Shown here: positions 12,247 through 61,529 of the stretch, one piece after another
Numbering within the stretch: the first letter of the stretch is position 1
How the letters are laid out: each line of letters opens with the position of its first letter
DNA from: Cymodocea nodosa
Taxonomy: Eukaryota; Streptophyta; Magnoliopsida; Alismatales; Cymodoceaceae
DNA: 64,000 nucleotides
Direction of reading: 5' to 3'
NCBI GenBank assembly: GCA_036874045.1
Contig: CM072337.1
Coordinates: forward strand, 9,548,001 to 9,612,000
Notes under the pieces: model-generated
Seen by the model: only the letters and a program-made list of their open reading frames with translations
Databases searched by the model: none
Told to the model about the DNA's origin: nothing
Position numbers and translations under genes: made by a program

Positions 12247-12876
12247 ATGGAATTGATGCAATTACCGTTGGATGCACTAAGGGAAGTACTGAGTAATTTA
12301 TCAGCTAAAGATCTATGCAGGCTATGTTGTGTATCAAAAGAAATTAAAGACTGTATTGAAGAAAAATATTTTTAGGGACTACAAGCTGCAAAAATGACTA
12401 ATATTAGAGATGGATTTATATGGAGGTCATTTAATCGTAGTTCAATTAACCATGAATATCTTGCTATGGAAGAAACTACTGGAATTCCACCCAATACATT
12501 AGAAGGAATAAATCATATTATGAGGATAGATGAAGGATTAATCATATACATGATGAGACCAAGGTATGCAAGTTTATTATTACCTGATATTTTAATAAGA
12601 AATCTTATAACAGGAGAAGAATGGAATATAGGAAGACCTAATAGATTTGAAGTACCAACTGTAAATTGTGGGTCAGCTTTAATATTTTCTGATAAAAATT
12701 TTGTAATTCTTGAAAAATTATATTATTGGAGACCTATAGGAAATTGGGGTGAAGATTTACGCTTAAGTGTGTATAACTTTCTGAATAGATCTTGGAATGA
12801 AAATATTATGATATATTTGGGACGAAAATCATTAATTAACCAAACACATGTCATACTTGATTATCTAAAGTCCTGA
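12247..12876 (+). pseudogene. F-box gene carried by Ath-1, 3'-truncated
   Basis: MELMQLPLDALREVLSNL begins a canonical F-box (LSAKDLCRLCCVSKEIKDC). A TAG at about 12373 replaces the Gln (CAG) of Ath-2. The frame is then open for 160 codons through ILIRNLITGEEWNIG and LSVYNFLNRSW. It ends abruptly where a deletion of about 1.24 kb, relative to Ath-2, joins HVILD to the 3' untranslated region. Probably non-functional. Confidence 0.82.
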
Positions 12877-26822: not shown

Positions 26823-27755
26823 CTAAGATAATGTAGCTATTTCTATTTCTACATCTATTTCAATATATTCCTCTTCCCACTTCCATTCATTTAGGTCTTT
26901 TATAATCCATATTTGAAATTTCATTAATTCATCCCACCATCTTATTAGACATAAAATAGGATCATCATATTCATTATACCACATTCCTAATTGAATTTTA
27001 TCATATTTTGCAAATGATGGTTTAGCTATATCACTCGGTATAGGTAATATTTCTATAAAGTCATCATCATAACTATCTATGCTTACTACGTATAAATCAG
27101 ATCTAAATGCAACTGATATATCTGTGACTAGATATATATATCCATCAAGTATGACATATATGTTGTTAATTAATGCTTTCTGTCCTAGATATATCATAGT
27201 ATTTTCAGTCCAAGATCTATTCAGAAAATTATACACACTTAAACATAAATCTTCATCCCAATTTCTAGTTGGTCTCCAATAATACAATTTTTCAGGAATG
27301 GTCGAATTTCTATTAGAAAATGTTAAAGCTGACCCATAATTTTTAGTTGGTACTTCAAATCTATTAGGCCTTCCTATATTCCATTCTTCTCTAGTGATAT
27401 GATTTCTAATCAAAATATCGAGTAATAGAATTGCATACCTTGGTTTGGTTCTGTAAATAATTAATCATTCATCTATCCCCATAATATGATCTATTCCTTC
27501 TAATGTGTAGGGTCGAATTCCAACATTTTCTTCCATATTCAGATATTCATAGTTGATTGAACTGCGATTAAATGACTTCCATAAAAATCCATCTCTAATC
27601 TTAGTCATTTTTGCAACTTGTAGTCCATGAAAATATTTTTCTCTAACATAGTCTTTAATTTCTTTTAATACACAACACAATCTGCACAGATCTTTAGCTG
27701 ATAGGTTACTTAGTACTTCCCTAAGTGCATTCAGTGGTAATTTCATCAATTCCAT
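26823..27755 (-). pseudogene. F-box gene carried by Ath-3, one stop codon
   Basis: Starts MELMKLPLNALREVLSNL (F-box, residues about 5-45) and runs 311 codons to ...IDVEIEIATLS. It is collinear with the 310-aa Ath-2 protein without net frameshift. Apart from one TGA at 27465-27467 (GGA in Ath-2) I see no break. The F-box-associated-type part keeps ILIRNHIT, LSVYNFLNRSW, VILDGYIYLVT and SIDSYDDDFIEILPIP. In SCF ubiquitin ligases the F-box binds SKP1 and the C-terminal part recruits a target; the target here is unknown. An upstream 18-codon extension of the frame is not used, because homology starts at this Met. Confidence 0.85.
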
Positions 27756-29116: not shown

Positions 29117-30143
29117 TGTTTAGAATGAAAAAGTGCATATTATTAACGGTTAAATGATGGTTAATTACATAATATTTAGCTTATCATATAAAAATTAAGC
29201 CATTATGTTATAATTGCACTGTTATATACTTTAATTGAAGAATCTGCTTAAATTGGGGGAATTAATGTTAATTTAGTACATTTATGAACTGTCGGTAAGT
29301 TGCAGGCTATGAAATTCTTAAGTATCCGAATTTTTTGATATTTCGGACAGTTATGTTTAACATACAAAACATATTTCGGATAGTTATGTTTAACAGACCG
29401 AATATGTCGGATAGTTATGTTTATATTGTCGAACAATTATATTTTGAAGGAATATTTTATTATTTCCAGAAGTACATGTGTCAAAACCATAATGAATGAC
29501 TTAAGTGAACTTTCGGTGAGTTATCTATAACTATCCGAAATTGCAGTTGGGCATCGGATAGTTATCCCTTTAACTCTCTGAAATCTCTTTTTATTTATAA
29601 AATAGCTGAGGACACGTGTCATGTTCTGGGAAATTGACTTAAGTGGATTTTCGGTGAGTTAGCTGTAACTATCTGAAATGCATTTGAGCATTGGATAGTT
29701 AGACCTGCAACTCTCCGAAATGTTATTTTATGATTAAACTACTGCTGACACGTGTTGATATCTAGTAGATATACTTAAGTTATATATCGGTGAGTTATTT
29801 GTAACTATCCTAAATGCATCTAAGCATCAGATAGTGTTGAGTATTTTTGTTTTGATGATGTGTGCTGAATGAAAATAATCATATTTGCTCAATTACTATT
29901 GCTTGTGAAAAGAAATTAAAATCATCAATTAATACAGAAAAAGCTTACTGATATAAATACTTGTCTGTATTGGATCTAAAGTTAATAACTAGTCGTTTCG
30001 TTGCATTAATTTCTCATTTAGCTAAACGTTAAGTTAACGTGTGTTTTTATTGAAAAGCATGGTATGTTTTAATGTTATATCTTTTGTATCATGAATAGTG
30101 CACGTTTAGACAACTCGTTAAGTTAGAGTTTTGTTTGTATAGA

Positions 30144-30240
30144 GGTCACGTGAGAACTCGTTAAGTTAGAGGCTTAAAGGTTAAAATAGGTCACGTGAGA
30201 ACTCGTTAAGTTAGAGGCTTAAAGGTTAAAATAGGTCACG
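30144..30240 (+). repeat. 45-bp G-box tandem repeat in the S1 solo LTR
   Basis: GGTCACGTGAGAACTCG starts at 30144 and 30189, and a third, partial unit starts at 30234 (period 45 bp). S1-A and S1-B have one full unit fewer at the matching place. Confidence 0.85.
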
Positions 30241-30923
30241 TGATAACTCGTTAAGTTAGTGAGTAAAAGAAGAGACGAACTCGTTAAGTTAGTGTTATAC
30301 ACGTGGTGAAATTATAAGTTACGAATGTTGTATTGTATCACGTGAGGTGCACATGTTTAACTCGTTAAGTTAACATAACTAAATGCGTTGAGTTGCTATA
30401 TTGAACACTAAGGCAACGCGTTAGGTTAGCGTTATAAACTTAAGTTGTTATTTTTGCACGTGGTAAAATTCTTATTATAAAAACATTTGTTTATTACTGG
30501 TTCATTGAGTTATCATAACACAACGGAGATGGTTCGTTGAGTTATCATAACACAATGGAGATGGTTCATTGAGATAGCATAACACCACGGACATAGTTCG
30601 TTGAGTTAGCTATAGTTCTTGTCACGTGAAATGGCACATGAGGAACTCGTTAAGTTAGAAACGTTAAGTTATATATATACTTGTGTTACTTGTTTAGTTA
30701 ACATTAAAGTAACGACTTCTTATTACACTGATGAAAAACTTTTGGACGAGAAAGTTTATTTTGCAGGAAATTATTCAGAGATCCAGGACTGATGATTAAA
30801 GAAAATTTGAAATATAAACGTGGGTTAGAACGTGTGTTTCGATAAAGGAAAAAGAAAAGACGTGGAGAAGTGGAAAACTAGTGGTGGTTAAACGTGAAGG
30901 ATATGCATGAAATGAAGATATAG

Positions 30924-30930
30924 TATAAAA
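30924..30930 (+). promoter_or_regulatory. TATA box of S1 LTR
   Basis: TATAAAA in AGTATAAAAGGC, conserved in position and context in the two other S1 LTRs. RNA start would be expected about 25-35 bp downstream. Confidence 0.65.
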
Positions 30931-32825
30931 GGCATAGAATTCTCGTTGATCAATTTATCCTTGCGCACAAAACAAAAAATCTTTTCAAGGATCAAATTCG
31001 GTGAAGCATGAAAAGACAAGATATTCATCACTGAAGAATTGCTGAAGAAGAAAAAGAAGAAGAAAGATCTCAAACAAGGAGAAAAGTTTTAAATTCCGCA
31101 AATTAGTTTTCTCTGTTTGTAGTTATGAAATTGTTTAGATAATACATGGTATCGAAATATAATTGCATCAACAATTTCTGAGGAGAATTGAATTGTATAT
31201 TGTAATTGAAACCTTGAATAAAAATGATTTTATGAAAACAATGTCTCGACTTGTTTTTGAGTTTTAAAGTTTCAATTATATTTTAGAAAATATTAAAAAT
31301 ACACAATTCACCCCCCTCTTGTGTAGCCATACGATCCTACAGATAGTTAAGTTTATAAGTATCTGAAATGCACCTAAGCATCGGATAGTTAAATTTATGC
31401 ATGTGTTTTATAGTTAAATCAACGAAGAAAGTCCGTTGGGTTATCTGTAACTCCACGGACTATATATTTTCTAATATGCCACTATAGCAGTTGCAGGAAC
31501 AGACAATTGGATGAGAAAAACCACATTTGCATGTATCACGCAGGAATTCAATCGTGCAGGGAGAAGAAAGCATCGCCATTGATATGAATGAAGGAAATAC
31601 AACCGACCATTCAAGTAGAAGCAGTTACTGCTGAAGAAATATAAAAGAAAAGAAAAAAAAAAGAAGTGTGTGATCGATGGAAGGACAGTGTATGTAGAGG
31701 AGGATCGGTGTCACAATTCTCTGAAGTACCACACCAACTATCATCATCACCATCATCACCACCATAATCACCAACCATCGGAGGTCTGTGAGGATACTTG
31801 CCTGATGTCGAGTCGATTCTGAGCCAAACATAGTGCTTGACAACCATTGTGAGGAGTGATCGCGTCGCGGGAAGGGAAGCCATTTTCACCAAGCGCCGAC
31901 TCATATTTCAAGAGATCATAAAGCTTTTAGCCTTGGCTTCGGGTTGATGCCTGTATGCTGAAGAGGAGATTATCTTGCAATTCTGGACTCGCGATTCTAT
32001 AGGGAGAGGAAACAGAATTGTAAATGGTTTAATTTTCAGTGGTGTAATCGCGTTGCAAGTAATGTCAGAAGTATTTACTGTCAAGTGAGATTACTTTACA
32101 TTTCACCTATCGCCCATTTCCATGTTCATATTAAAACAAAAATACCAAAAACAATTTATCTATGTTTGTATGTTGTATTTGAGTGTTGTATTGTTTGTGT
32201 TGTATCGTGATTAATGTTACCTTTGTCAGTGTTGTGATTGTTTTATGTTTATTTTAGTTTTACAGTTTACTGAAATTGGTTCGTTCCAAAGACTTAAAGA
32301 TTTTAATGGTTACTGTTTGAATTATCTGAATGTTAGTATTGCTTAATGATAAATCCAATGTTAACTAGCATTAAAGAGCTTAATTGATGTTATTTACAAT
32401 CTATGGAATCACCCAATGGTTGGCCGAATTCCTCTGTAAATAGTAGTATTAAAAAGAAAAGTCAGGCTCGTGGAGTTAACTTAAGTCCACGAGGTTAGTC
32501 CGTTGAGTTAGCCATAACTCAACGAACTTAACTATAAATTAACGGAGAGCTTATTGAATATATAAATTTGGTTGTTAACAAACAAACAGTTCTCAAATTC
32601 GTCAGCAATTCCCTCTGGGATCGACTGGTACTTGAACATTGATACAATAGACACTGTGCACTTGCAGTTAAAGTACAAATTGGAATTAATATCTAAATTG
32701 TATTAAAGGTTGTTTGTTTACTTCTAAAAGAGAGAATAGGCATAAAGATAAATTAACTAAGTAAAAACAGAAGTAACAAATCCAAGTTTTTCTAGTGTAG
32801 TGTTGGGAAAACCAAACAAGTTTTA

Positions 32826-32843
32826 TGGCGCCATTGTCGGGGA
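32826..32843 (+). other. Primer-binding site of Ath-2, tRNA-Asp type
   Basis: TGGCGCCATTGTCGGGGA: two transitions from the perfect tRNA-Asp complement, 7 bp after the LTR. Confidence 0.9.
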
Positions 32844-32932
32844 ATTGAATTGAATTGAATTGATATAAGCAACTGTTAGAGCTGTTTCATTTTAATAGCC
32901 AGAGTTGTGTGTTTTCTTCTGTAATTGAGAAT

Positions 32933-34030
32933 ATGGCATATGCTTATGCTCAAAGATTTCTGAAACTTGTAATTAGCATATGTGAATTCTACAATTCTAA
33001 AGGACACGACATTTCTGATTGTTTGAAATTGAGACGTTTACAGATGGTTATATCCCATGAACAACAAATGAATTATCCTCAATATAATAGAGCCTAGTAT
33101 GAGAATCCTATAGTTTACCCAACTGATGGTCAGTATAGAATGTGCAACATGATAAGAGACACTGAAGTTTGGGATAGCTATGATAGACTGGAGCATAGTA
33201 TAGAGCAAAATCTAGACAAACTGGAACACTTTGTGTGTTAACAACAAGAAGTCAACCAATTAAATTATAAGAAATCATATTCAGAACCTAAAAGGGATAT
33301 AATTTACGAAACTGAAAAAACCATAAAGAAAATTGATCAAAAATTGAATGTAATGAAATTAGATGATCTGGAAACAAAATTAAAAGCATTAGACGATAAT
33401 TCAATGAAAATACAAGTTATGCAACAGGACAATGAAAATTATAATGTTATAAACCTGCATAATTTGCAAAATATACAGCAAACAGAAAATACTAATGTAA
33501 GAGAATTTAAAGAATGTACTTTAAAACTAAAAACAATTGAAGATCATAATCACAAAAATGATATGAAAAAACATCATGAAAGTAACGAAAATCTAGAAGA
33601 TGTATGTGTAACTTTAAGATCTGGAACTGATATACCACCAAGAACTCAAAATGAAAATGATATGAAGGTGGATAAGAGTAAAAATCAAAATGATAATGAA
33701 AATGTAATAGCTGAAAATCTAGAAATCACTAAAGAACAATCTGAATCTATAAATGAAGCTAAAAATGATCAAACAAATTAATTGAAAGAAAAAGAGTCTT
33801 TGAAATCAAAATCTTTAGCACCCTATCCTGAAAGATTACAACAAACAATACCTGAAAGACAAGAGAAAATTAGAGAAATTTTTGAAAAAGTACAAGTTAA
33901 CATTCCTTTGTTAAATCTATTACAGAAAATGCCACCTTGTGCTAAATTTCTTAAAGATTGGTGTACTAAGAAAAGAGAGCGAAAAGTTCTTAGAAAGGTC
34001 TTTTTAGCTGAGCAAAGTAGTTCCTATTTC
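32933..34030 (+). pseudogene. 5' gag remnant and gag-protease linker (Ath-2)
   Basis: The ATG at 32933 (MAYAYAQRFLKLV) opens a frame with CEFYNSKGHDISDC, a CCHC knuckle lacking the second Cys. A Lys/Glu/Asn-rich stretch follows, then VTLRSGTDIPPR and APYPERLQQTIPERQ...MPPCAKFLKDW, the typical Athila linker before protease. No capsid domain is present. The frame is continuous from 32933 to about 34015 with stops at 33095, about 33239 and 33779, then a frameshift. The 33779 TAA is shared with Ath-1, so it may be ancestral, possibly the normal end of a short 5' ORF. Confidence 0.75.
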
Positions 34031-34461
34031 TGCCACAAATTCCTAAAAAGTTATCTGATCCTAGAATTCCTGTTATATCATGCACCATTGGAAATACCAT
34101 TCTAGAAAGAACATTAATAGACCTAGGTGCAAGTATAAATGTTATGCCAAGTGATATATTTGCATCCTTAGGATTAGAAGGCTTAACTCCTACTAGTACG
34201 GTTATTCAATTAGCTGATAGAAGTATAAGATACCTTAGAGGAACAATAGAGGATGTCTTAATTAAAATCAAAAATTTTATATATCCTATTGATATTGAAA
34301 TTTTGGATTCCCAACAAATTAAGCATAAAAATAGTGATACAACTTTAATTTTGGGAAGGCCATTTTTAGCAACATCAGGGGCTGTTATAAATTGTAAAAC
34401 TGGAGTAATGAAGTTAGCATATGGTAATGAGGACTCAATTAAATATTTTCAAACCAGATAG
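34031..34461 (+). pseudogene. Aspartic protease (Ath-2)
   Basis: Reads ...ISCTIGNTILERTLIDLGASINVMPSD, with the active-site D-L-G-A at 34120-34131, then LILGRPFLATSGAVINCKTG. The active site is intact. The frame is lost upstream (about 34015) and at about 34433, where 2 nt are deleted relative to Ath-1. Confidence 0.87.
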
Positions 34462-35817
34462 GTTTGAGGAGTTAGAAATGTCCTTACATACCATAAACTT
34501 TTTAGAGGATGAATGAGATATGTTAGATGATGTGATTCAAGAAGAATTAAATAGGAAAATTAATTCTAAAACTTTATAAGAAAGTGAAAGCATAAATATA
34601 GAAGGAGATCAGGAAGAAATTAATTTAAAAAATGATGATGTTCAACTAGGAGCTCTAGCTTTTGATGGGTAGCATTTAGAATTAAAACCTTTACCTCCTG
34701 AATTAACCTATATATTTCTGAAAGATAAACGAACCTGTCCAATCATTGTTGCTTCAGATTTAAAAGAGGATCAAATAGCTAAATTAAAAGATGTAGTAAA
34801 AAGTTATAAAGAAGCAATAGGATGGACTATGACTGATATAAAAGGGTTAAGTTCAACTTTATGCTGTCACCACATATATTTAGATGAGAATGCTAAACCT
34901 GTTAGAATTCCTGAGAGGGGATTAAATCCAAACCTTAAAGAAGTAGTCAGGAAGGAAATAGTTAAATGGTTAGATAATGATATAATTTATCCGATTTCTG
35001 ATAGCTCGTGGGTTAGTCCAATCCATGTAGTTCCCAAGAAATCAGGATTAACAGTTATTAGGAATAAAAGTCAAGACTTGATACCTACTAGAATTCAATC
35101 AGGCTGGAGAGTATGTATAGACTATAAAAAGCTGAATGCTATGACTAGGAAAGATCATTTTCCCTTACCTTTTATAGATCAAATACTGGAAAGATTAGCA
35201 AGGCAAAAATATTTTGTTTCCTAGACGGGTATTCAGGGTATAACCAAATTCCAGTAGCATTAGAGGATTAAGAGAAAACAACTTTCACCTGTCTTAATGG
35301 AACTTATGCTTTTAAAAGAATGCCATTCGGATTATGCAATGTGCCAGCTACCTTTCAAAGGTGTGTGCAGAGCATATTTACTGGAATGACTGAAGATTTT
35401 TTAGAAATATTTATGGATGATTTTACTGTGTATGGCAACTCATATGAAGTGTGTTTAAGCAATTTAGACCAAATATTAAAACGCTGTATGGAAAAAAATT
35501 TGGTTTTAAATTGGGAAAAATGTCACTTCATGGTTAAGCAAGGAATAGTTTTAGGGCATGTTGTTTCTAAAAAAGGGTTGGAAGTAGATAAAGCTAAAAT
35601 AGAAGTAATTTCTAATCTACCAGAACCTAAATCAGTAAAAGATATTAGATCATTTTTAGGACATGCTGGTTTTTATAGAAGATTTATTAAAGACTTTAGC
35701 AAGATAGCTAGACCTTTAACTAATCTGTTAAAAGATGTTCCATTTAACTTTGATAAAAATTGCAAGGAAGCATTTTTCAGACTTAAGACTAGCTTAATTT
35801 CAATTCCTATAATTCAA
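34462..35817 (+). pseudogene. Reverse transcriptase (Ath-2)
   Basis: 34829-35224 and 35320-35892 hold the RT: SWVSPIHVVPKK, RVCIDYKKLNAMTRKDHFPL, the catalytic FMDDFTVYG near 35410, and RSFLGHAGFYRRFIKDF. A 1-nt deletion near 35213 and nearby stops break the frame. Other changes are substitutions. Confidence 0.9.
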
Positions 35818-36330
35818 GCACCTGATTGGAACTATCCATTTGAATTAATGTGCGATGGTTCTGATTTTGCTGTAGGAGCAGTGTTGGGATAGAAGATAGA
35901 AAAATCTCCTAGAGTGATTCATTACGCAAGCAAAACCTTAAATGATGCTCAAGTTAATTACACAACTACTGAAAAAGAATTATTAGCTGTTGTGTTTGCT
36001 TTAGAAAAGTTTAGATCATATCTGATTGGAGCTAAGGTAATAGTATACATGGATCATTCAGCTCTAAAACATCTAATAAAGAAAAAAGAAACTAAACCTA
36101 GATTGATCCGATGGATATTATTATTACAAGAATTTGATCTAGAAATTAAAGATAAAAAAGGTTGTGAGAATGTAGTAGCAGATCATTTATCAAGATTACA
36201 AATAGAAAAATCAAATATTGAAATTAAGGATAATTTTCCTAATGAACAATTAATGACCATTAACACAATGCCTTGGTATGTAGACATAGTTAATTACTTA
36301 GTTACTGGTTTAACACCTAAGGATTGGAAT
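35818..36330 (+). pseudogene. RNase H (Ath-2)
   Basis: Begins in the PFELMCDGSDFAVGAVLG block. A TAG at 35890-35892 follows directly, as in Ath-1, then the frame is open 35914-36336: [51 protein letters not shown]. It removes RNA from the RNA-DNA hybrid during reverse transcription. Except for the TAG the domain is intact. Confidence 0.88.
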
Positions 36331-36336
36331 AGATAG

Positions 36337-37575
36337 TATAAGAAATTGTTTTTCTCAAGAGTAAAATATTACTATTGGGAAGACCCATACTTATTTAAGA
36401 AATGTCCTGATCCGGTTTTAAGGAGGTGTGTTCCAGAAACTGAATATCCGAGCATATTGTCTTTCTGTCATGACCAAGCTTGTGGAGGACATTTTGGTTC
36501 AGGGAAAACTGCTGCAAAAATTCTGCAATGTGAGTTTTATTGGTCAACACTATTCAAAGATGCTCATAAATATTGCTTAAGTTGTTTATGATGTCAACAA
36601 ATAGGAAGAATATCAAAGAGGAATATGATGCCTCTTAATCCTATTGTTGAGGTTGAAATCTTTGATGTGTGGGGAATAGATTTTATGGGTCCATTTCCTA
36701 TGTCTAATCAATTTAATTACATATTGTTGGGGGTGGATTATGTATCTAAATGGATAGAAGCTATTCCTACAAAAACTAATGATAACAAAGTGGTAATACA
36801 ATTTATAAGAACAAATATATTTGCCAGATTTGGAATACCTAAAGCTATTATCAGTGATAGAGGAACTCATTTTTGTAATAGAAGTTTTGAAGCCTTAATG
36901 AAAAAATATGGAGTAAACCACAAAATTGCAACATCATATCATTTGCAAATAAATGGACAAGTAGAAAGTGCAAACAAACAAATTAAATTAATCTTGGAAA
37001 AAGTAGTAAATCCTACTAGAACAGATTGGGCTAATAGATTGATAGATGCACTTTGGGCTTATAGAACTACTTATAAAACGAGCTTAGGTATGTCACTTTT
37101 TAGGCTAGTATATGGAAAAAGTTGTCATTTACCTGCTGAAATATAACATAAAGCTTATTGCGCATTAAAAACTCTGAACACTAATTTAAATCAAGCTGTT
37201 GAAAATAGGAAAATGCAACTAATTGAATTAGAAGAATTTAGAAATGAAGCTTATTCGAATACTGTAAGAGAAAAAGAAAAAATTAAATTTTGGCATGATA
37301 GAAAATTTATTCCTAAAAGCTTTGAAATAGGACAATAAGTATATCTTTATATGGCTAGACTCCATAACCATCCAGGAAAATTGAAATCTAGATGGGCAGG
37401 ACCTTACATAGTTCGAAATGTTTATCCTTATGAAGCTATTGAAATTGAAAATCCTAAAAATCAGAATATATTTAAAGTAAATGGACAAAGACTTAAACCT
37501 ATTCTGAAAACACCAAAAAGCTCCTTTGGAATTATAGATGAAGTCAGAGTAGAGGATTACTCGAGCTTTATTTAG
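36337..37575 (+). pseudogene. Integrase (Ath-2)
   Basis: The zinc-binding region ([14 protein letters not shown]) is interrupted by a stop at about 36590. The DDE core is 36625-37146 with [18 protein letters not shown] and GQVESANKQ. The C-terminal part MARLHNHPGKLKSRWAGPY is 37351-37575. All parts are in one frame, broken by only a few stops. No chromodomain is visible, as expected for the Athila lineage. Confidence 0.9.
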
Positions 37576-38204
37576 TAATAAATCAGTTTTTATGTTTATA
37601 TATAAAAAAAAAAAAATATCGCAAAAATGTTGAAAAAAAAAAAAACATTAAAAATATATATAAAACATAAAAATCGTTGCAGTTCAATCGACTGGATCCA
37701 TCGGTATGACCGGAACATAAAAAATATATGAATATTAATTTTCAGAAAAAATTTTGGTTTTACCGAAATATAATATCGATTCAACCGAAAGAAAAAGTAA
37801 AAATAAAAAAATAAAAAATATATATATATTTAGGTTTGACTGAAACATAGTATCAATTAAATCGGTAACAAAACAGAAAAACTATTCTCTGTAATATTTT
37901 TATTATTATATTTGCTTGTACGGGAAGTCCGTTGAGTTACGCTTAACTCAATGAGCTTACTCCGTTGAGTCTTGAGTTAGTCAACGACCTTATTCCGTTG
38001 AGTTAACTGTAACTCAAGGGAGTACTGTAGCTAGGACCGCAGATAAAATAGTAATAGTTGGTTCGGGAATTGACCCAATTACCCGCCTAAACTTAGGGCT
38101 TATTTAAACTAAAACCTAGGGTTTAGGGGGCATTATCCAGCAAATCATTTAGAATCTAGAATAGTAGCAATCAAAGTGATTCCATGCTGTTGTGTAACTC
38201 CACG
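37576..38204 (+). other. Spacer between integrase and ORF3 (Ath-2)
   Basis: A-rich, non-coding. TACCGAAA / TCGGTT motifs at 37690-37880, GTTGAGTTA/TAACTCAAC modules at 37925-38025. Confidence 0.7.
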
Positions 38205-40436
38205 ATGAGGAAGATAACGCCTGAATTCTGGGAAGAGGCAGTGGACACCGCATAGTTTTTGAAGGAATCTGAAGAATGGCACACGAGGAAGAAGATTAGA
38301 AATACAACAAGAGAGAAAGAGCTACAAAAGGTAGAATCAGAACTCTTTAATTTGAGAAAAATTCTAGTTGAGTTAGAAATACAGATACTGCAGATAATGG
38401 AGACACGAATTAGAGTGGCAACTGAAATTGCATTAAGTAAAGAAAGAAAGATACAGCCAAACAATGAAGTAGCCCTAGAATTAATCCAACGTAAGTCCCG
38501 ACTCTGGTTCAAAAGACAAATCTGTAGACGAGCTAAATGGGTGATCTGGGAGCAAGAAAGGAAAGAAAATGAACAACGTGAGGCAACTAAAGGATAAGAG
38601 GAGACGACTGTTGAAAGACCTGTTCTTGAGGAACAGCAGTTAGGACCTTCAATTCCACCATTTAAGCCATTGGCACGAGCAGAAATGATGGGGCCTTCGA
38701 CTAAAGAAGAGAAAAGAGAATTTGCAGAACTAGTTCAAGTTGGGAAGAACTAAGGAGAATCAGAAGATTTGGTAGTGGCCAAAGCACACCTAGTGTTTGA
38801 TGCACTTTACAAAAAGAGGGTTGTAGAAAAGTTGAAAGCCCAATATAAAATCAAATTGGAATAGCATCATGAAGCTAATGCCAGAACTGCTACCAAATCT
38901 GCTGCAAAAGAAGCTGAAGCTGGTCCTTCGAGACCAGTAGTTATAAAAAAAGTTAAATAGGAAGAGACAATACTTGTGGCTCGAAGACCTGCAGAGCCTA
39001 TTTTTGTGGATTTAATTTCAGAAGATGAAGAGAAAGAACAAGCACAACTAATCAGAAAAAGGAAAGGAAAAGAAAAAGTGCCTGAATATGAGGAAATTAA
39101 ATCTGAAGTACCAATTTTTACAGGGCCTATGGAGCAAATTTTTATTAACTTGCTATCCGATTCTGAGGAGCAGGAGGAGCAAAGAAAAGAAGAAAATCAG
39201 GCTGAAATTAGTTTGTAGCCTGTATAAGAAGAAACAAAAATTAGGGCAGAAACTGAATTGCCTGTGACTCCATCCCAATCTGTTACAGAATTAGAAAGAA
39301 CAATAACAAAACAGATTGGTAGTTAGGAGGAGCAAGAAAGTGAAGAAAATGAAGAGGCTGAAAGAAGCTATTTGGACAAAAATAATTTCATAGATTCCAT
39401 TGAAGAACAAGAAACTCTTCAACAATTTATGGAGAGAATTCAAGACAAAGTGGAGAGTTCTGCCGGCTCACCACCACAGACAGAAGCAAAAGCAAAAATC
39501 CAGGAATCTGAAGAGAATGTCCAAATGCAACCTATGCTAGAGGAAGATCAAGAACAAACCCCTCAGAAGCAACAAAGTCACCTTCTTGACCCGATTGAAA
39601 TAATAATTTTGAATGAAGTACATTTTTGAAGACAGGAAGCTTATACCAAATACCAAGAAATAAGGGGTTACAATATTATTTATAGTAGACCAGTAAATTG
39701 GGATAGAATGCAAGAAATCAAAGAATTATTTGAATTCCAAGGTCTACTGCAATTTATATCTCAAGAAAGAGGGCATGCAATATATGAAAATTTAGTGCCC
39801 TGTTTCTATGCAAATTTGAGAGAAAGAGAAGGAGGATTAATTTCAAACGTGGAGGAAGCTGATGTAAAGATAACACCAGAGCTTCTCCACAATATTTTTG
39901 GTTTAAAGAATGAAGGAATAACAATTTTGGAAGATATAACTGCCGTCGAGTGGACTGAACAGGAAATCAAGGATTGTTTAGCTATCAATCCTGGTGTGCC
40001 ATTACCAAACAGATTGAAACATTTAAATGGTAAAGCACACATGATAGCTAACATTCTGATTAAGAATGTCTATCAACGATAGGGCCATGACATAGAATTA
40101 AGTCAATTTGTCAAATGAGCCACATATGCAGTTGTAAATAAGATCCAAATAAATTGGTCTGCAGTTTTTATCTCCAAGCTAAAAACAGTGAAGAAGAAAT
40201 TATTTTATGGAGATTTGATTCCACTGTTGATGGTGGACTGTATTGATTTCACTAAATGGACATCAAAAAGGATCAAATCAAGAACCATTTTAGTGAAAGA
40301 ATACAGAAATTTTGTAGCTGCAGAACTAGTTGTACCTTTTAGAGGAATTACAGGAGCAGTAGAGAGGATTAATCAATTAGAGCTTCAATTAAAAAAACTC
40401 CAGAAGGAAGTAGATGAACTTAGGCATAGAGATTAA
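38205..40436 (+). pseudogene. ORF3 of Ath-2: 744-codon frame with about eleven stops and no frameshift
   Basis: Starts MRKITPEFWEEA at 38205 and stays in one frame for 2,232 bp. Parts: charged helical N-terminus (EEWHTRKKIRNTTREKELQKVE); acidic middle with FVDLISEDEEKEQ (about 39000) and FINLLSDSEEQEE (about 39135) separated by a basic IRKRKGKEKV; C-terminal domain from about 39705 (MQEIKELFEFQGLLQF, NIFGLKNEG, IQINW, KLFYGDL) and a Leu-heptad-like end. The stops lie at Gln- or Trp-type codons where they can be compared. It occupies the place of the Athila env-like ORF, but there is no signal peptide or transmembrane segment, so I do not call it an envelope. The C-terminal domain resembles the group known as putative plant transposon protein. 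Confidence 0.78.
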
Positions 40437-41383
40437 ATTGTATTGTTCGTCTACTTATGTAAAACTGTATGAAATTGTATGATGTACTTGTATTGTAATT
40501 GATTCATATTAATGAATGTAAATTTTTCAGATGCAATTCTCATACTTGTTTTGAATGTGAAATGAATGGAAATTATTGAATATTATGTTATTGTGAAACT
40601 TTATGAATGAATATGTAACAGATTTACAATTTGTTGAATGACAGGATAACTGCTTAAAAATTTCTACATGTTATAAGGTAAAAGGTAAATTCTGCATAAC
40701 ATAAAATGACCTACAAGTTAAATCTTTATATAAGATTTAGATTTAAATAAATTTTAATCAAAATGATGCATTAATGACATAGATTTAACTTTATTTTAGT
40801 TAGCAGAATAAAAAAAAAGAAGAAGAACAGAGAGGAACTTATGAGAGTAAAACTTAGAAGTTGCTAAGTGTTAACTCAACGAAGTAAGTTCGTTGAGTTA
40901 ACCTTAACTTCGCGAGGTCAGTAATATAATATAAGGTCACTCCGTTGAGTTATCTGTAACTCAACGAAGTTAGTCCGTGGAGTTAGCAACAGTAACCGAC
41001 TGTGTTTCGTTGAGTAATCTGTAACTCAACAAGGTTAGTTCGTGGATTAAGCAGAAGAGTTATTCTTTTAACCACGAACGAAGCTTCGTCGGTTTAGCAG
41101 TTACCAAAATTTGAAATTAGTAGTGGTACACGTACCCATATAAACAGGAACCACGATGCATGTTGCAAGACACGTTCTTGCAACGTGATTTATTCACTTT
41201 ATCGATGCGTAGTATATATATAAAACAAAATGTTATTTACGAGTTACCAGCACTTTTAAAAGAAAGGGGAAGGCGTTGGAGGAACTGGAAGGAGAAGCAG
41301 GTGATTCAACTTCATCTAACAACAAATATTTATAGAATGGAAAGCTTCAGACTGGTATGTAATTAATTTTCTGCTATTTATTT
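40437..41383 (+). other. Spacer between ORF3 and gag (Ath-2)
   Basis: AT-rich. 40870-41045 has GTTGAGTTA/TAACTCAAC modules, including a perfect 10-bp-arm CGTTGAGTTA inverted repeat at 40943-40966. 41060-41380 is promoter-like (see next entries). Confidence 0.65.
41162..41225 (+). promoter_or_regulatory. Possible internal promoter upstream of gag (Ath-2)
   Basis: A palindrome with arms GTTGCAAGA and loop CACG (41162-41184) lies about 30 bp before a TATA box TATATATATAAAA (41213-41225). Both parts are kept in Ath-1 (10480-10543). It would start RNA near 41250, just before the relocated gag ORF. Confidence 0.45.
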
Positions 41384-41455
41384 ATGAGCACATGGACTCG
41401 TTCTCTAAGCACTAAACGATTAGTAAGAACACCTACCCAAGAATTTTCATTGCAG
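41355..41455 (+). other. Possible 101-bp intron at the start of gag (Ath-2)
   Basis: Donor CTG|GTATGT at 41355 and acceptor TTTTCATTGCAG|ATG ending at 41455. Splicing would join an upstream frame (41160-41354, exactly 65 codons) in phase 0 to the gag Met at 41456 (codon 25 of the unspliced ORF). Ath-1 keeps the donor but lost the acceptor. Confidence 0.35.
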
Positions 41456-42727
41456 ATGAGTACTGAAAAATTTTCGGAACTGAACTTTAACGAAATTCTT
41501 TGGGGTGTAGCTAACCTTTCATTAAAAGAGAACGTAGAGATGGTTGCTCTAGTAGAAAAACCATTAGGAGAGATTCTGTATCCTGAATTAGTTGATGAAC
41601 CTTCATGTATTCGATTGTCAAACTTTGAGGGAGATAGGTTTGAACTGAAATCTAATTATATTAGTCAATTGCCACATTTTCATGGATTAGAAAGAGAGTA
41701 TGCCTATTATTTTCTTAGAGAATTTAATGAAGTTTGTCAAATGATGAAAATGCCAAACATGAGTATAGATGCTATTAAACTTAGATATATCCCTTTTTCT
41801 TTAAAAGACACAGCTAAGAGATGGTTATATACTCTGTCGCCTGATTCAATTTCTACATGGAAGGAATTTTGCTCTGTTTTTCTGGAAGAATATTATCCAA
41901 CACATCAAATGATTAAAAAGAAGAAAGAAATATTAATGTGTAGCCAAAAACAGGGTGAATCATTTTGGAAATATTTTGAAAGATTTAAAGATTTACTGAC
42001 TCAATGTCCACATCATGCAATGAGTAAAGCACAATTAATAGGTATAATTTATGAAGGCATAGATGTTTCAATGAAATCTTTATTAGAATCTACTTGTCAA
42101 AATGGATTTTTAAAATTATGTAGTGAAGGAGCATGGGCATATTTAGAAAATTTTGCAAAAAGAACTGCACAGTGGGAAAATTCGGTTGAAGCTATTGTAG
42201 ATAAAAAAATATTGCCAAGAGGAATGCTTGAAATAGATTCAAGTACTATGCTTGAGGTGAAATTAAATGAATTAACAAAGAAAATAGAAGAGTTATCATT
42301 AAATCAAAAGCTAGTAGAAAAGAATGCAAACATAAATGACTTAGATATTATTTATACTAGAAACCAAAGAGATAACTTGGGAAATTCTTATCATCCTAAT
42401 TGGAGAAATCACCCGAATTTATCTTGGAGAAACAACAATTTCCAAGGAGGAGAAAATATAAATGAGAAAAACATAAGTTATGAAGTATTAATTGAACAAG
42501 GAGCTAGAATAGAGAAATTAGAAAAGATAATCCAACAAGTAAACAATCGTCTAGAATTTATATTTGGAAATGGTGCAATTCAAAATCAGAATAGAAATAT
42601 ATCACTTAGACAGAAGGAACCAATGGAAGTTAGACCTACTGGAGGATTTCCAATACAAGCTATACCTAATCCTGTCAATAGAACGGTTAATGAAATTGAT
42701 ACCTCTTCTAGGAGGGCAGCTGAATGA
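41384..42727 (+). CDS. gag: Gag capsid protein, relocated downstream of pol (Ath-2), intact
   Basis: 447 aa, open throughout. Residues about 90-230 form the retrotransposon gag (capsid) domain: FEGDRFELKSNYISQLPHF, LRYIPFSLKDTAKRWLYTL, SISTWKEFCSVFLEEYYP, ILMCSQKQGESFWKYFERF, CPHHAMSKAQLIGIIYEGI. Residues about 325-345 hold YHPNWRNHPNLSWRNNNF, which in Athila gag follows the zinc knuckle; the knuckle itself is absent here but present in the Z gag. The C-terminus ends near where the usual gag-protease linker begins (NEIDTSSRR). Capsid would assemble the particle around element RNA. Met 25 (41456) is an alternative start if the proposed intron is used. A genuine capsid, but in an unusual place. 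Confidence 0.9.
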   Translation: MSTWTRSLSTKRLVRTPTQEFSLQMSTEKFSELNFNEILWGVANLSLKENVEMVALVEKPLGEILYPELVDEPSCIRLSNFEGDRFELKSNYISQLPHFHGLEREYAYYFLREFNEVCQMMKMPNMSIDAIKLRYIPFSLKDTAKRWLYTLSPDSISTWKEFCSVFLEEYYPTHQMIKKKKEILMCSQKQGESFWKYFERFKDLLTQCPHHAMSKAQLIGIIYEGIDVSMKSLLESTCQNGFLKLCSEGAWAYLENFAKRTAQWENSVEAIVDKKILPRGMLEIDSSTMLEVKLNELTKKIEELSLNQKLVEKNANINDLDIIYTRNQRDNLGNSYHPNWRNHPNLSWRNNNFQGGENINEKNISYEVLIEQGARIEKLEKIIQQVNNRLEFIFGNGAIQNQNRNISLRQKEPMEVRPTGGFPIQAIPNPVNRTVNEIDTSSRRAAE

Positions 42728-42918
42728 AGCAGCATATCTGAAGCAACTATCTGTATGTATATATGTTTTTTATTTTTAGTTAATAGTATCATAGAGTTAA
42801 TTTTTAACTCAATGAACTTAGTCCATTGAGTTATGCCTTAACTCCACGAGGGTGTGCAGTAGTTATGTTAATTTTTTGTCTCTGCTAAATTTTTGTTTGT
42901 GTTATACAGAATCGAAAA
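42728..42918 (+). other. Spacer between gag and F-box ORF (Ath-2), with splice-acceptor-like site
   Basis: Contains a GTTAATTTTTAACTC / GTTGAGTTATGCC module pair (42795-42850). A pyrimidine-rich TTTTTGTTTGTGTTATACAG, a good plant 3' splice site, ends at 42909, ten bases before the F-box ATG. Confidence 0.5.
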
Positions 42919-43851
42919 ATGAAATTGATGCAATTACCAATGGATGCACTAAGGGAAGTACTAAGTAACTTGTCAGCTAAAGATCTGTGTAGGCTGTGTT
43001 GTGTATCAAAGGAAATTAAAGACTGTATTGAAGAAAAATATTTTCAGGGACTACAAGCTGCAAAAATGACTAAGATTAGAGATGGATTCATATGGAGATC
43101 ATTTAATCGTAGTTCAAATACCCATGAATATCTAGCTATGGAAGAAACTACTGGAATTCCACCCAATGCATTAGAAGGAATAAATCATATTATGGGGATA
43201 GATGAAGGATTAATCATATACAAGACGAGACCAAGGTATACAAGTTTATTATTACCTGATATTTTGATAAGAAATCCTATAACAGGAGAAGAATGGAATA
43301 TAGGAAGACCTAATAGATTTAAAGCACCAACTATAAATTATGGGTCAGCTTTAATATTTTCTGATAAAAATTCTACAATTCCTGAAAAATTATATTATTG
43401 GAGACCTATAGGAAATTGGGTTGAAGATTTACGCTTAAGTGTGTATAATTTTCTAAACAGATCTTGGAATGAAAATATTATGATATATCTAGGACAGAAA
43501 TCATTAATTAACCAAACACATGTCATACTTGATGAATATATATATCTAGTCACTAGGATATCAATAGCATATGGATCTGATTTATGCATAGTGAGCATAG
43601 ACAGTTATGATGAATATATAGAAATTTTACCTGTACCGAGTGAAATAGCTAAACCACCATCTGTAGAATTTAATGAAATTCAAATAGGAATGTGGTATAA
43701 TGAAGAAGATGATCCTACTTTATGTCTGATAAGATGGTGGGATGAACTGATGAAATTTCAAATATGGATTATGGAAGACATAAATGAATGGAAGTGGGAA
43801 GAGGAGTATATTGAAATAGATGTAGAAATAGAAACTTCTACATTACCTTGA
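42919..43851 (+). CDS. F-box protein encoded by a retrotransposon (Ath-2), intact
   Basis: 310 aa. Residues about 5-45 are an F-box: LPMDALREVLSNLSAKDLCR, then LCCVSKEIKDCI. Residues about 105-275 resemble an F-box-associated interaction region: LLLPDILIRNPITGEEW, KLYYWRP, LRLSVYNFLNRSWNENIM, HVILDEYIYLVTR, LCIVSIDSYDEYIEILPVP. The C-terminus is acidic and Trp-rich. By family knowledge, F-box proteins dock on SKP1/CUL1 and bring substrates for ubiquitination. Here the gene lies in the same strand and place as in Ath-1 and Ath-3, between gag and the 3' untranslated region, so it is an element gene captured from a host F-box gene. No intron or poly-A trace of capture is visible. Substrate unknown. 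Confidence 0.9.
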   Translation: MKLMQLPMDALREVLSNLSAKDLCRLCCVSKEIKDCIEEKYFQGLQAAKMTKIRDGFIWRSFNRSSNTHEYLAMEETTGIPPNALEGINHIMGIDEGLIIYKTRPRYTSLLLPDILIRNPITGEEWNIGRPNRFKAPTINYGSALIFSDKNSTIPEKLYYWRPIGNWVEDLRLSVYNFLNRSWNENIMIYLGQKSLINQTHVILDEYIYLVTRISIAYGSDLCIVSIDSYDEYIEILPVPSEIAKPPSVEFNEIQIGMWYNEEDDPTLCLIRWWDELMKFQIWIMEDINEWKWEEEYIEIDVEIETSTLP

Positions 43852-45762
43852 AATCAAAAAGGATCCCTTTCTGCATTACATATCATTAATGGTAATACAC
43901 TCGTATTTGGAATTTATAATATATTGCATGTTTACAAATTAAAAAGGAACAAAAATTGCATTAAAACAGAATTAATAGTAAGAAGAACTATGCCTAAAAA
44001 GTTTGTTTGGACTGATACATTTATTCCATTTGTTTCTACTTTTCAATCATGTTCTTAAGCTATGATTTTGTGTGTTTAATGTTGTGTGTATTTTGCATTT
44101 ATTATTAAAAAAAAAATTATTTTTCATTTTTATTTTATAAAAGAAAAAAAAAATATCAATCTAGTTTGTTAGTATCTGTTCTGGGAAACCAACTGGCTTG
44201 CTTGTAAGCCACCAAAGGCATAGGAGCCTAGGTTCCACACAAGATACTGAATTATCAATATCTATTAAATGTTATTTTGTTATATATTCTGTGTTTATCT
44301 AGGAATGAAAAGTTTTTCAGAATCAAAAATCGGAATATGTAGAAGGAGATACAAATGGAACAAGTTATGTAACTAATTACTCATCCTGAATTTTAAATCA
44401 AACAAAACTGTATTCATGCTTGCTACAATTACTGTATTTATTGTCAAATCTTTTACATTGAGGACAATGCAAAATGTAGGTATGGGGGGGAGGTAATTAA
44501 AGTAATAGCCATGTAAGTTTGTTAATTAAAGGAATTAAAATGGTACTGTAAAGTTTTGAGGAAATTGAAAATGAACTTGCTGTAACTATTTGATAGTTGA
44601 GACTGTAAAATTTTTATAAACTACTTGAATGTTATATTTAGAAGGCTATATAAGATGCTATTGAATTTATTATTTATGTAAATCTAGATATAGTATCTTA
44701 TGTTTTTTCTGAATTTCATGAGTTTAACAGTTTCATGATTTTAAAATGAAATCAAAATGCTTAATGAAAAATCAGTAAATTATCTAAAGTCCTGAAAGAG
44801 CTGAGATGTGAATTCTAGATTAAATGAAACACATATGATTAAAGATACATTTAATTTAACTGATTGAACTTGTAGAATGATCTATGTGTAGATCTTATTA
44901 AACTACAGAAAAAGTATGAGCTTATTGTTATGGATTCATATTTTCAGTAACTGATAGAAGCAGGACTATATGAGATTGGTGATTACAGCATCTGTATTAA
45001 TGAAATACATACATATATAGTATGTGATTAATGTTTTGTTTTGTGTTTGTAGTTTTGGAAAAAAAAAGAAAATTTGAGAGTTTATTGACGTGTTTGATCA
45101 TGAGCCTTTTGTACTTGAGCAGATAAGTATGTAAGGATTGTTGACCTGAAAAAGGACTCTTAAAATCTGGCAACCTAAGATCTTGATCAGATCTGGGATT
45201 GTTGACTGAAAGCTCGTTACATGGGTACATTAGAAAGCTCTTGTATGATTCAAGCTTGTTAAATTAACTTTTAAAGTTAGAGAAAAAAAAAAAATATACA
45301 TATACTGTTCTTAAAAGATACAAGTGTTTTTTGAAATACAGATATCTTATGAATTGAGTATATTTTCTATTATCTAGAATTGCTGAAATATAAATCTGGA
45401 ATTGACTTTTGAAGTTGTTTAATGGAGATACAATTCTTTATTCTACTTGTCTTAATCAGATTGAATTGGATTGTACTCTGATTCGTATGTTGTTGAAAAT
45501 TCTTCTAGAAATCTTATTGGAAAATTCAGGATGACAGATGATGAAAAGAAGAACAAACGATAATATAATTAACACCTATATAATGATGATATACTTGGTA
45601 TGTAATTTACATATATTCTAAGTATATTTGCAGGTTGATTACTGAAACATACAGAATATATTTTTTGCTAAACAGAAGAAAAACAAAGGGGAAGAATTAA
45701 TTCTAGCACTTTTAAAGACCAATTAATTAGATCTTAGTTTGCTAAGGGACTAGCAAAATTTA
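43852..45762 (+). other. 3' untranslated region of Ath-2
   Basis: About 1.9 kb without a supported ORF. Carries CATTGAGGACAATG followed by TATGGGGGGGAGG at 44456-44494, a second polypurine-like tract seen also in Ath-3 and Z. Other landmarks: AGCCACCAAAGGCATAGGAG near 44208, a GGATTGTTGACCTGAAAAAG block near 45137 and A-rich tracts near 44110, 45060 and 45285. Confidence 0.72.
44456..44494 (+). other. Conserved GAGGACAATG motif with internal polypurine tract
   Basis: CATTGAGGACAATG, then a 7-G run. Equivalent sites: 26090-26127 (minus, Ath-3) and 49071-49109 (minus, Z). In Athila-type elements this motif usually lies after pol; here it always lies after the relocated genes. Confidence 0.7.
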
Positions 45763-45775
45763 GGTATGGGGGAAG
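45763..45775 (+). other. Polypurine tract of Ath-2
   Basis: GGTATGGGGGAAG immediately before the 3' LTR, identical to Ath-1. Confidence 0.9.
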
Positions 45776-47978
45776 TGTTTAGAATGAAAAAGTACATATT
45801 ATTAACGGTTAAATGATGGTTAATTGCATAATATTTAGCTTATCATATAAGAATTAAGCCATTATGTTATAATTGCACTGTTATATGCTTTAATTGAAGA
45901 ATCTGCTTAAATAGGGGGAATTAATGTTAATTTAGTACATTTATGAACTGTTGGTAAGTTGCAGGCTATGAAATTCTTAAGTATCCAAATTTTCTAATAT
46001 TTCGGACAGTTATGTTTAACATACCAAACATATTTTGGATAGTTATGTTTAACAGACCGAATATGTCAGATAGTTATGTTTATATTGCCGAATAGTTATG
46101 TTTTGAAAGAATATTTTATTATTTCCAGAAGTACACGTGTCAAAACCATAATGAATGACTTAAGTGAACTTTCGGTGAGTTATCTATAATTATTCGAAAT
46201 TGCAGCTGGGCATTAGATAGTTATCCCTATAACTCTTCGAAATCTCTTTTTATTTATAAAATAGCTAAGGGCACGTGTCATGTTCTAGGAAATTGACTTA
46301 AGTGGATTTTCGGTGAGTTAGCTATAACTATCCGAAATGCATCTGAGTATCGGATAGTTAGACCTGTAACTCTTCGAAATGTTATTTTATGATTAAACTG
46401 CTGCTGACACGTGTTGAGATCTGGTAGATTTACTTAAGTTATATATCGGTGAGTTATTTGTAACTATCCGAAATGCATCTAAGCATCGAATAGTTAAGTT
46501 TATAAGTATCCGAAATGCACCTAAGCATCGAATAGTTAAATTTATGCATGTGTTTTATAGTTAAATTAACAAAGAAAGTCCGTTGGGTTATCTTTAACTC
46601 CACAGATTATATATTTTCTAATATGCCACTGTAGCGGTTGTAGGAACAGACAGTTGGAAGAGAAAAACTACGTTTGCACGTATCACGCAGGAATTCAATC
46701 ACGTAGGGAGAAGAAAGCATCGCCGTTGATATGAATGAAGGAAATACAACTAACCATTCAAGCAGAAGTAGTTATTACTGAAGAAATATAAAAGAAAAGA
46801 AGAAAAAAAGAAGTGTGTGATCGATAGAAGGATAGTGTGTGCAGAGGAGGATCAGTGTCGCAATTCTTTGAAGTACCACACCAACCATCATCATCACCAT
46901 CATCACCACCATAATCACCAACCATCGAAGGTCTGTGAGGATACTTGCCTGATGTCGGATCGATTCCGAGCCAAACACAGTGCCTGACAACCACTGTGAG
47001 GAGTGATCGCGTCACGGGAAGGGAAGCCATTTTCACCAAGCGCCGACTCATATTTCAAGAGATCGTAAAGCTTTTAGCCTTGGCTTCGGGTTGATGCCTG
47101 TATGCTGAAGAGGAGATTATCTTGCAATTCTGGACTCGCAATTCTATAGGGAGAGGAGACAGAATTGTAAGTGGTTTAATTTTCAGTGGTGTAATCGCAT
47201 TGCAAGTAGTGTCGGAAGTATTTACTGTCAAGTGAGATTACTTTACATTTCACTTGTCGCCCATTTCCATGTTCATAGTAAAACAAAAATACCAAAAACA
47301 ATTTATCTATGTTTGTATGTTGTATTTAAGTGTTGTATTGTTTGTGTTGTATTGTGATTAATGTTATCTTTGTAAGTGTTGTGATTGTTTTATGTTTATT
47401 TTAGTTTTACAGTTTACTGAAATTGGTTCGTTCAAAAGACTTAAAGATTTTAATGGTTACTGTTTGAATTATCTGAATGTTAGTATTGCTTAATGATAAA
47501 TCCAATGTTAACTAGCATTAAAGAGCTTAATTGATGTTATTTACAATCTGTGGAATCACCCAATGGTTGGCCGAATTCCTCTGTAAATAGTAGTATTAAA
47601 AAGAAAAGTCAGGCTCGTGGAGTTAACTTAAGTCCACGAGGTTAGTCCGTTGAGTTAGCCATAACTCAACGAACTTAGTCCATTGAGTTAACTATAAATC
47701 AACAGAGAGCTTATTGAATATATAAATTTGATTGTTAACAAACGAACAGTTCTCAAATTCATTAACAGTTCCCTGTGGGATCGACCTGTACTTGCACACT
47801 GATACAATAGACACTGTGCACTTGCAGTTAAAGTATAAATTGGAATTAATATCTAAATTGTATTAAAGGTTGTTTGTTTACTTCTAAAAGAGAGAATAGG
47901 CATAAAGATAAATTAACTAAGTAAAAACAGAAGTAACAAATCCAAGTTTTTCTAGTGTAGTGTTGGGAAAACCAAACA
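45776..47978 (+). repeat. 3' LTR of Ath-2
   Basis: 2,203 bp, TGTTT...AAACA. Aligns end to end with 29117-32818 minus the solo LTR and lies next to the CCAAG duplication (47979-47983). A 10-bp-arm CGTTGAGTTA inverted repeat at 47648-47671. Several substitutions per 100 bp against the 5' LTR in the U3 stretch I compared by eye, so the insertion is not recent. Confidence 0.94.
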
Positions 47979-47983
47979 CCAAG
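47979..47983. other. Target-site duplication of Ath-2, right copy
   Basis: CCAAG, matching 29112-29116. Confidence 0.93.
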
Positions 47984-50825: not shown

Positions 50826-51134
50826 GCACTAAGACATTCACATCAGTTATGTAATTCAAGAGTATATGCAAGAGTTATTTACATGGTGAAATATCACCAA
50901 AGTATACAAGTACCATCATATATGATAAAATTTCAGCATGAATGGTTGACCATATAAACTCAAGATGACATGAAACAACAAGGATAGATGCATGATAATA
51001 AGCATATAAAATTTTGACGTGAACTTGCAATAATCAATTTTATTGTTAACTACTAACACAATAATACATAGAATGAAAAATTACTAAGAATTAAGAAAAG
51101 AAAAACTACATCTACAACTAAATACATATAAAAA
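50826..51134 (-). other. Spacer between integrase and gag of Z
   Basis: AT-rich, with no LTR ends, PBS or polypurine tract, so there is no sign that integrase and gag belong to two different elements. Confidence 0.6.
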
Positions 51135-52210
51135 CTAATTATAATTGGGTTCCAACAACAAAGCACTCTCTCCATGATTGTAGGTTTTTCTAGGATAATA
51201 TTCTTTAAGTCTTTGACCATTCACTACAGTTTTAAATCCTGTCTTACAATTTTCTATAGCTATAGCTCCATGATTATATATATGTTTAATGATGAATGGT
51301 CCTGTCCATCTAGTCTTAAATTTTCCAGGGAACAAATGTAATCTAGAGTTATATAATAAAACTTCTTGTCCCTCATGAAAGTCCTTTCTCAAAATTTTCT
51401 TGTCATGGAATGCTTTTGCTCGTTCTTTTGCGATCTTTGCATTTTCATAAGCCTCTTTTCTTATTTCTTCCAACTAATTGAATTGATATTTTCTTACTTT
51501 TCCTACATCATCAACACACATGCTAAATGTTCTAATAGCCCATTCTGCTTTATGTTCTATTTCTATAGGTAAATGACATGCTTGCCCATAAACTACTCTA
51601 AATGGTGACATTCCCAACACAGTTTTATGGGCAGTCCTATAACCCCAAAGTGCATCATTAAGCTTTTCTTCCCAATCCTTCTTACTTGGTTTGATTACTT
51701 TTTCAAGCATGTGCTTGATTTGTCTATTGGATACCTCAACTTGCCCACTTATTTGAGGATGATATGGTGTTGCTAACTTGTGAGTAACCCCATACTTCCT
51801 CAAAGTCATTTGAAATACTTTGTTGCAAAAGTGAGGTCCATTATCACTAATTATAGCTCTTGGAATACCAAATCTAGCAAAAATGTTAGATCTAAGAAAA
51901 TCAACAACAACTTTAGCATCATTTCTCTTAGTTGGGATAGCTTCAATCTATTTAGAAACATAATCGACAGCCAACAAAATATAAGAATAACCAAAAGAAA
52001 TGGGAAATGCTCCCAAGAAATCAATGCCCCAAACATCAAAAATTTCAACTTCAATGATAGGATTCAAAGGCATCATATTTCGTTTGGAAATTTTTCCCAT
52101 TCTTTGGCATCTATCACAATGTCTATAATGATCTTTAGAGTCTTTAATTAGAGAAGGCCAATAAAATCCACATTCAAAAATTTTCAAAGAAGTTTTTCTA
52201 TGGCTAAGAT
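51135..52210 (-). pseudogene. Integrase of Z, cut by S2
   Basis: One frame from 52187 to 51135 with two stops: TAG at about 51948 (Trp of SKWIEA) and TAG at 51474 (Gln expected). Zinc part CDRCQRMGKISKRNMM, core D in GIDFLGAFP, E in SGQVEVSNRQ, then GMSPFRVVYGQACHLPIE and the C-terminal FKTRWTGPFIIKHIYNHGAI. The N-terminal end is removed at 52211 by S2, flank AAGAT. Closer to standard Athila integrase than the Ath-1/2 proteins. Confidence 0.88.
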
Positions 52211-54820: not shown

Positions 54821-54836
54821 TTACATATTTTATCTC

Positions 54837-57553: not shown

Positions 57554-57558
57554 AGGTG
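57554..57558. other. Target-site duplication of S1-A, right copy
   Basis: AGGTG, matching 52371-52375. Confidence 0.88.
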
Positions 57559-61512: not shown

Positions 61513-61529
61513 ATTTGACTTTGACTTGT

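Follow-up and report, generated by a model that had tools for sequence, protein, structure and literature searches.

The window, i.e. the whole 64,000-nucleotide stretch of Cymodocea nodosa DNA that was analysed, contains a complete LTR retrotransposon of 18.9 kb, Ath-2 (29117-47978), the last gene of which is an F-box ORF. This gene has the domain content of an F-box/FBA-like protein, holds its position in many copies of the family, has been maintained as a reading frame and is carried along in derivatives that have common junctions. By analogy with known F-box proteins, we give an even chance to the reading that the captured gene would act for the element as a substrate receptor of an SCF ubiquitin ligase, directed against a host protein.

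All the hallmarks of an LTR retrotransposon are present, i.e. TG...CA LTRs, target-site duplication, primer-binding site, polypurine tract, RT, RNase H and integrase (Table 1). In the Ath-1 counterpart of pol, Pfam matched RVT_1, RT_RNaseH_2, rve and Integrase_H2C2, while the protease region of the Ath-2 pol was assigned by resemblance. The ORF at 60041-60862, which is the relative of the third ORF, has a Transposase_32 match below the cut-off. The two LTRs of Ath-2 have diverged by 0.05-0.06 substitutions per site, those of Ath-1 by 0.07. The type of the primer-binding site presumably agrees with that of Athila. Neither Rfam families nor tRNA genes were matched when the window was scanned for them.

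Table 1. Features of Ath-2 and the F-box copies of Ath-1 and Ath-3, in window coordinates.
Feature	Position	Strand	Remarks
5' LTR of Ath-2	29117..32818	+	TGTTTAG...CCAAACA; split by a foreign insertion (29836-31342)
Target-site duplication CCAAG	29112-29116 and 47979-47983		both flanks of Ath-2
Primer-binding site TGGCGCCATTGTCGGGGA	32826..32843	+	2 matches in the window vs 0.00 expected by chance
5' coding region with a single zinc knuckle at its start	32933..33781	+	broken by stops in Ath-2
pol: protease, RT, RNase H, integrase regions	34021..37575	+	interrupted in Ath-2
Third ORF	39630..40436	+	interrupted in Ath-2; 35% identity to ORF 60041-60862
gag ORF of the capsid type (447 aa), 3' of pol and lacking a zinc knuckle	41384..42727	+	Retrotrans_gag, E=1.5e-20
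F-box/FBA-like gene, 310 aa, intact	42919..43851	+	ORF and profile searches
3' untranslated region (UTR)	43852..45765	+	served as neutral control
Polypurine tract ATGGGGGAAG	45766..45775	+	directly before the 3' LTR
3' LTR of Ath-2	45776..47978	+	94-95% identity to the 5' LTR
Ath-1 F-box	12247..12861	+	covers residues 1-205, with one stop; C-terminal part lost to a deletion
Ath-3 F-box	26829..27755	-	76% aa identity; one stop

An intact 310-aa ORF with an F-box, lying after gag and before the 3' UTR, had been described in an earlier, sequence-only reading, which also named a profile search for the F-box as a check. Both were confirmed: the ORF runs from ATG to stop with zero internal stops, and the Pfam F-box profile PF00646 matches residues 4-41 with 39.5 bits against a cut-off of 20.5 (E=4.3e-10). 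The same reading had assigned the C-terminus to the F-box-associated type. This agrees with TIGR01640 (F_box_assoc_1), which, like PF00646, matched every one of nine stop-free copies in an alignment (best E=5.5e-8); the E-value is 0.0019 for the window copy and 1.7e-7 for a relative, L064 (residues 114-304), and the printed scores of 17.6 and 30.8 are under the curated cut-off of 37.9. The Pfam profiles FBA_1 and FBA_3 were matched in 6 (best E 0.012) and 2 (best E 1.2) of the nine stop-free copies, respectively, and the C-terminal half of the window copy had no Pfam match. The gene resembles host plant F-box/FBA proteins (TIGR01640, PF07734) in as much as an N-terminal F-box is followed by an FBA-type region, here in one uninterrupted ORF, but it is encoded inside an LTR element, and since its FBA scores are weak, we consider its FBA-type region diverged from that of the host proteins. 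An AF2 model from a 5-row alignment of window sequences was uninformative (mean pLDDT 32), the best E-value in PDB sequence searches was 0.098 (F-box only protein 4 followed at E 0.79), and a search of viral contigs gave no match. The search for a host donor with PF07734 gave 0 matches among 31 candidates in the plant's own genome, and likewise none in the control genomes; with PF00646 no donor was singled out among the best 150 of 4220 candidates, which mix host and element copies.

The claim that the same gene is found, in diverged form, in Ath-1 and Ath-3, and that it is intact in Ath-2 with one stop in Ath-3, is borne out as well. For the Ath-1 copy the proposed start (12247) stands, but the homology ends at 12861 rather than at 12876. 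In the genome (374.6 Mb, 28 contigs) the best 128 of 6450 candidates for the F-box protein are full-length or nearly so, and 56 of the 128 scored are stop-free, with 107 stops in all. A search with the Ath-3 piece gave matches of 83-90%, apart from the self-match, among the best 150 of 5594 candidates; the two lists may overlap and their counts are not additive. The same UTR lies behind the F-box in 20 of 20 loci picked by F-box similarity (in L035 it is split by an insertion), an LTR start in the same sense follows in 19 of them (L022 runs into an inverted LTR), and gag or part of it precedes the F-box in 16. With gag as query, the best 94 of 8041 candidates include 2 stop-free ones, the query among them. 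To avoid choosing copies by the F-box itself, we took the 7 best gag matches that the F-box query had not already listed; the window copy and two copies from its list were left aside. The presence of the gene in other family members, which the sequence-only reading had made a test of its proposal, was seen here in 6 of 7 copies, with the F-box at the expected offset; L073 had no F-box at the expected place. If the window copy and the two passed-over copies are counted, the F-box is present in 9 of the 10 best gag matches.

The F-box is also retained in derivatives that lack gag or pol, all of which were picked by F-box similarity. Three of them, located on three contigs (L024, L029 and L038), have the common junction 41354|42902-42906, where the excision of gag begins 30 bp upstream of the gag start and ends 13-17 bp upstream of that of the F-box, and the F-box occupies the place of gag behind the same leader. 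L033 and L034 have a common pol deletion, and L034 and L039 have another common junction. Such common junctions suggest that the derivatives were copied onward.

The frame of the gene has been kept. Between Ath-2 and Ath-3 there are only 2 indels over 936 columns of the F-box, both of 3 bp, as opposed to 14 over 1477 columns of the UTR, eight of which are of 1 bp and 12 are not multiples of 3. Since the indels of the F-box are all in-frame and those of the UTR mostly frame-breaking, the F-box was kept as a reading frame, which is shown to have stayed open while at least two subfamilies diverged. In the 6 gag-picked F-boxes we found 0 indels, vs 8.5 expected at a UTR deletion rate that was obtained from F-box-picked copies and includes old common deletions (P 0.0002), and vs 1.9 expected at the gag rate, which is unremarkable (P 0.14).

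The substitutions gave a mixed answer to the dN/dS check proposed by the sequence-only reading: pairwise omega is below the UTR controls, but omega on a tree equals them. The pairwise value for the F-box of Ath-2 and Ath-3 is 0.51 (0.33-0.71 in 40 bootstraps) vs 0.70-1.14 for six readings of the UTR; for comparison, it is 0.23 for RT/RH and 0.25 for INT. For Ath-2 and Ath-1, the N-terminal part of the F-box gave 0.37 (0.19-0.70) vs 0.72-1.13 for the UTR, with 0.74 for gag and 0.33 for the third ORF. On a tree of 41 copies, the omega of the F-box is 0.72 at the tips and 0.66 inside, and that of the UTR read as codons is 0.66-0.69; when Ath-3 and seven diverged copies were added (49 copies), omega was 0.68 both inside and at the tips. 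An omega below 1 was therefore rejected as a sign of selection, since a codon reading of the UTR yields like values. Near-fixed and common variants of the F-box together differ from singletons (N/S 60/38 vs 136/40, P 0.005), and near-fixed differences alone gave P=0.07; the odds ratio of the frequency classes is 0.36-0.61 for the F-box and 0.60-0.85 for the UTR control, i.e. the control tends in the same direction and the signal of the F-box is only modestly stronger. Group differences in the F-box had no clear third-position excess. In F-box-picked copies, the contrast in shared stops, 1 of 84 in the F-box vs 9-10% in the UTR, is weak. Some fits were not relied on, namely a single one for one UTR frame (omega 1.79, and 0.81 after a refit from two starts) and two single, unrefitted ones (1.36 for an RT piece of Ath-2/Ath-1, 2.55 for the integrase when paired with the diverged relative described below). 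The frame is thus kept while the substitution signal is mixed, so the gene is under weak amino-acid constraint or evolves fast.

The sequence-only reading had also considered the F-box better preserved than pol. With respect to gag, better preservation was not borne out, as stop densities are alike in the gag-picked copies (8 stops over 6 F-boxes, 310 codons each, vs 14 over the gags of the same 6 copies, 447 codons each); with respect to pol the comparison is confined to the window's own copies. Fewer stops in the F-box than in gag were seen in the F-box-picked copies, and given the like densities in the gag-picked ones, the apparent better preservation rests partly on the choice of copies. 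At eight gag positions a stop is found in at least three copies, and because 6 of the 8 are CAG codons, they point to recurrent decay after insertion. The idea that shared gag stops are inherited defects of a master copy was rejected, as these CAG positions are scattered over the copies. Recurrent stops at CAG codons would fit decay in a CHG context. In Ath-2 there are 2 CAG codons in the F-box and 5 in gag, while codons that a single C>T or G>A change would turn into a stop occur at equal density in both (29 of 310 in the F-box, 41 of 447 in gag). The share of C>T plus G>A among singleton changes is 42% in the F-box, 43% in gag and 63% in the third ORF.

The gene order of the element is different from the Athila order gag-pol-3' ORF. 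As the capsid-type gag lies 3' of pol, we term the element only 'Athila-like'. A zinc knuckle stands alone 5' of protease-pol, and the capsid-type gag, which has no knuckle, is found 3' of the integrase and the third ORF (32933-33097 and 41384-42727 in Ath-2, 10702-12042 in Ath-1; also in L033, L034 and L040). Pol precedes gag in Ath-1, Ath-2 and L040, as well as in L033 and L034, in which pol is partly deleted. The CX2CX4HX4C knuckle is complete in L033 and L034 according to a by-eye reading of tblastn output in a different frame, and its second Cys is altered in Ath-1 and Ath-2; no capsid domain was detected in the 5' coding region. A Gag split in this way is unusual for a Ty3/gypsy element and, if functional, it would mean that an element of this type can encode capsid and nucleocapsid apart. 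A literature search, mainly of titles and abstract openings, revealed no report of Athila-like elements with their capsid gene 3' of pol. A diverged relative on the minus strand (49464-52286; 69% aa for INT, 36% aa for gag) has, some 300 bp past its integrase, a gag that includes a CX2CX4HX4C knuckle, and there is no F-box match in the next 1.5 kb up to Ath-2. Being a single case, this integrase-gag order may be a junction of two elements.

It is useful to compare Ath-2 with known systems. Like Athila, it combines a Ty3/gypsy pol with additional 3' ORFs, e.g. Athila ORF-1/Transposase_32 (PMC6317226, PMC11728184), but the gag-pol order is broken and there is an extra F-box gene; the likeness is one of such features. 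In a screen of 121 angiosperm genomes, 15 domains uncommon in LTR elements are described, and extra domains are considered to become fixed only rarely in plant LTR retrotransposons (PMC9289625). The same paper reports giant Gypsy elements of Phalaenopsis with an AlkB/2-ODD m6A demethylase that is active in vitro, and in the literature searched this orchid AlkB is the only extra domain with a reported activity test. Both are large plant Gypsy elements with a captured host-type regulatory domain and many copies, and the Phalaenopsis domain is likewise proposed to bear on host control; unlike there, the domain of Ath-2 is an F-box/FBA-like protein known from sequence, not an RNA demethylase, and separate coding regions specify its capsid and its zinc knuckle. 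The P0 protein of poleroviruses is a viral F-box silencing suppressor that assembles a host SCF and acts on AGO1 (PMC11371168). Ath-2, like a polerovirus, is a plant-cell parasite with an F-box protein of its own, but P0 is the suppressor of an RNA virus, and the likeness lies in the F-box. The term F-box does not occur in the main text of PMC9289625 or, supplements apart, in PMC6317226, PMC7264820, PMC11963269 and PMC11728184, and titles and abstract openings, which made up most of the literature search, reported no F-box gene in an LTR retrotransposon.

The course of events that we favour is as follows. A plant-type F-box/FBA gene would have been captured, presumably from the host, by an Athila-like LTR retrotransposon and would have become its 3'-most gene; along with the element it has since spread to many sites. 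F-box proteins are the substrate receptors of SCF ligases. Provided that the protein is made, its F-box is likely to bind host SKP1 and may thereby join an SCF ubiquitin ligase, to which the FBA-like C-terminus would bring an element-limiting host protein for ubiquitination. By analogy with polerovirus P0, our first guess for the target is an RNA-silencing or chromatin factor; the silencing factor is a guess, an anti-silencing role of the protein as such is plausible. We are more tentative about an extended version, in which the element would also have rearranged its genome, with capsid and F-box as a 3' module set apart from zinc knuckle and pol and the receptor retained in derivatives lacking gag or pol, and in which its own SCF receptor would degrade a host restriction factor and so aid its spread. 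The gene might thus let the element tamper with the protein-disposal system of its host, and, through the predicted binding to SKP1 and a predicted host substrate, it offers a testable handle on active counter-defence by plant retroelements.

It might also be argued, and we hold this to be possible though doubtful, that the gene is a passenger without current function, once useful or merely carried near the 3' end of active sources. The tree omega, which equals the UTR control, agrees with this, and a place near the 3' end may shield the F-box from loss in derivatives with internal deletions, but a passenger does not account well for a pairwise omega below the controls, nor for the lack of frame-breaking indels both between Ath-2 and Ath-3 and in the 6 gag-picked copies. 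The protein could also act on the element's own products, e.g. in the turnover of Gag or integrase or in the make-up of the particle, as the F-box lies directly behind the relocated capsid gene and replaces gag in L024, L029 and L038; yet these gag-less derivatives retain the F-box, and we find such a role rather unlikely. Family members adjoin and nest in one another within the window, hence they share cells and sites, and a weapon or exclusion factor that removes the proteins of rival retroelements or limits kin copies would fit this setting, although we regard it as very improbable. Captures confined to a single copy or a few have been described (PMC7264820), but for the F-box the idea of a host gene nested by chance in a few copies is scarcely credible and is refuted by the copy survey, in which the same UTR follows the gene at every F-box-picked locus and the gene is in place in nearly all gag-picked copies.

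Several further repeats were found in the window. The 1.5-kb insertion in the 5' LTR of Ath-2 belongs to a separate repeat family, several relatives of which, about 87-98% alike, lie on the minus strand at 52376-61731. Copia-type integrase, RT and RNase H pieces are presumably present on the minus strand at 55171-56505 and 63505-63984, as judged by eye from their resemblance. In Ath-3, also on the minus strand (18174-25264 and 25368-28125), an LTR-like sequence separates the F-box part from the pol part, as if two elements stood in tandem, and the RT segment at 20273-22721 consists of three tandem copies of 820 bp that are 95-98% alike.
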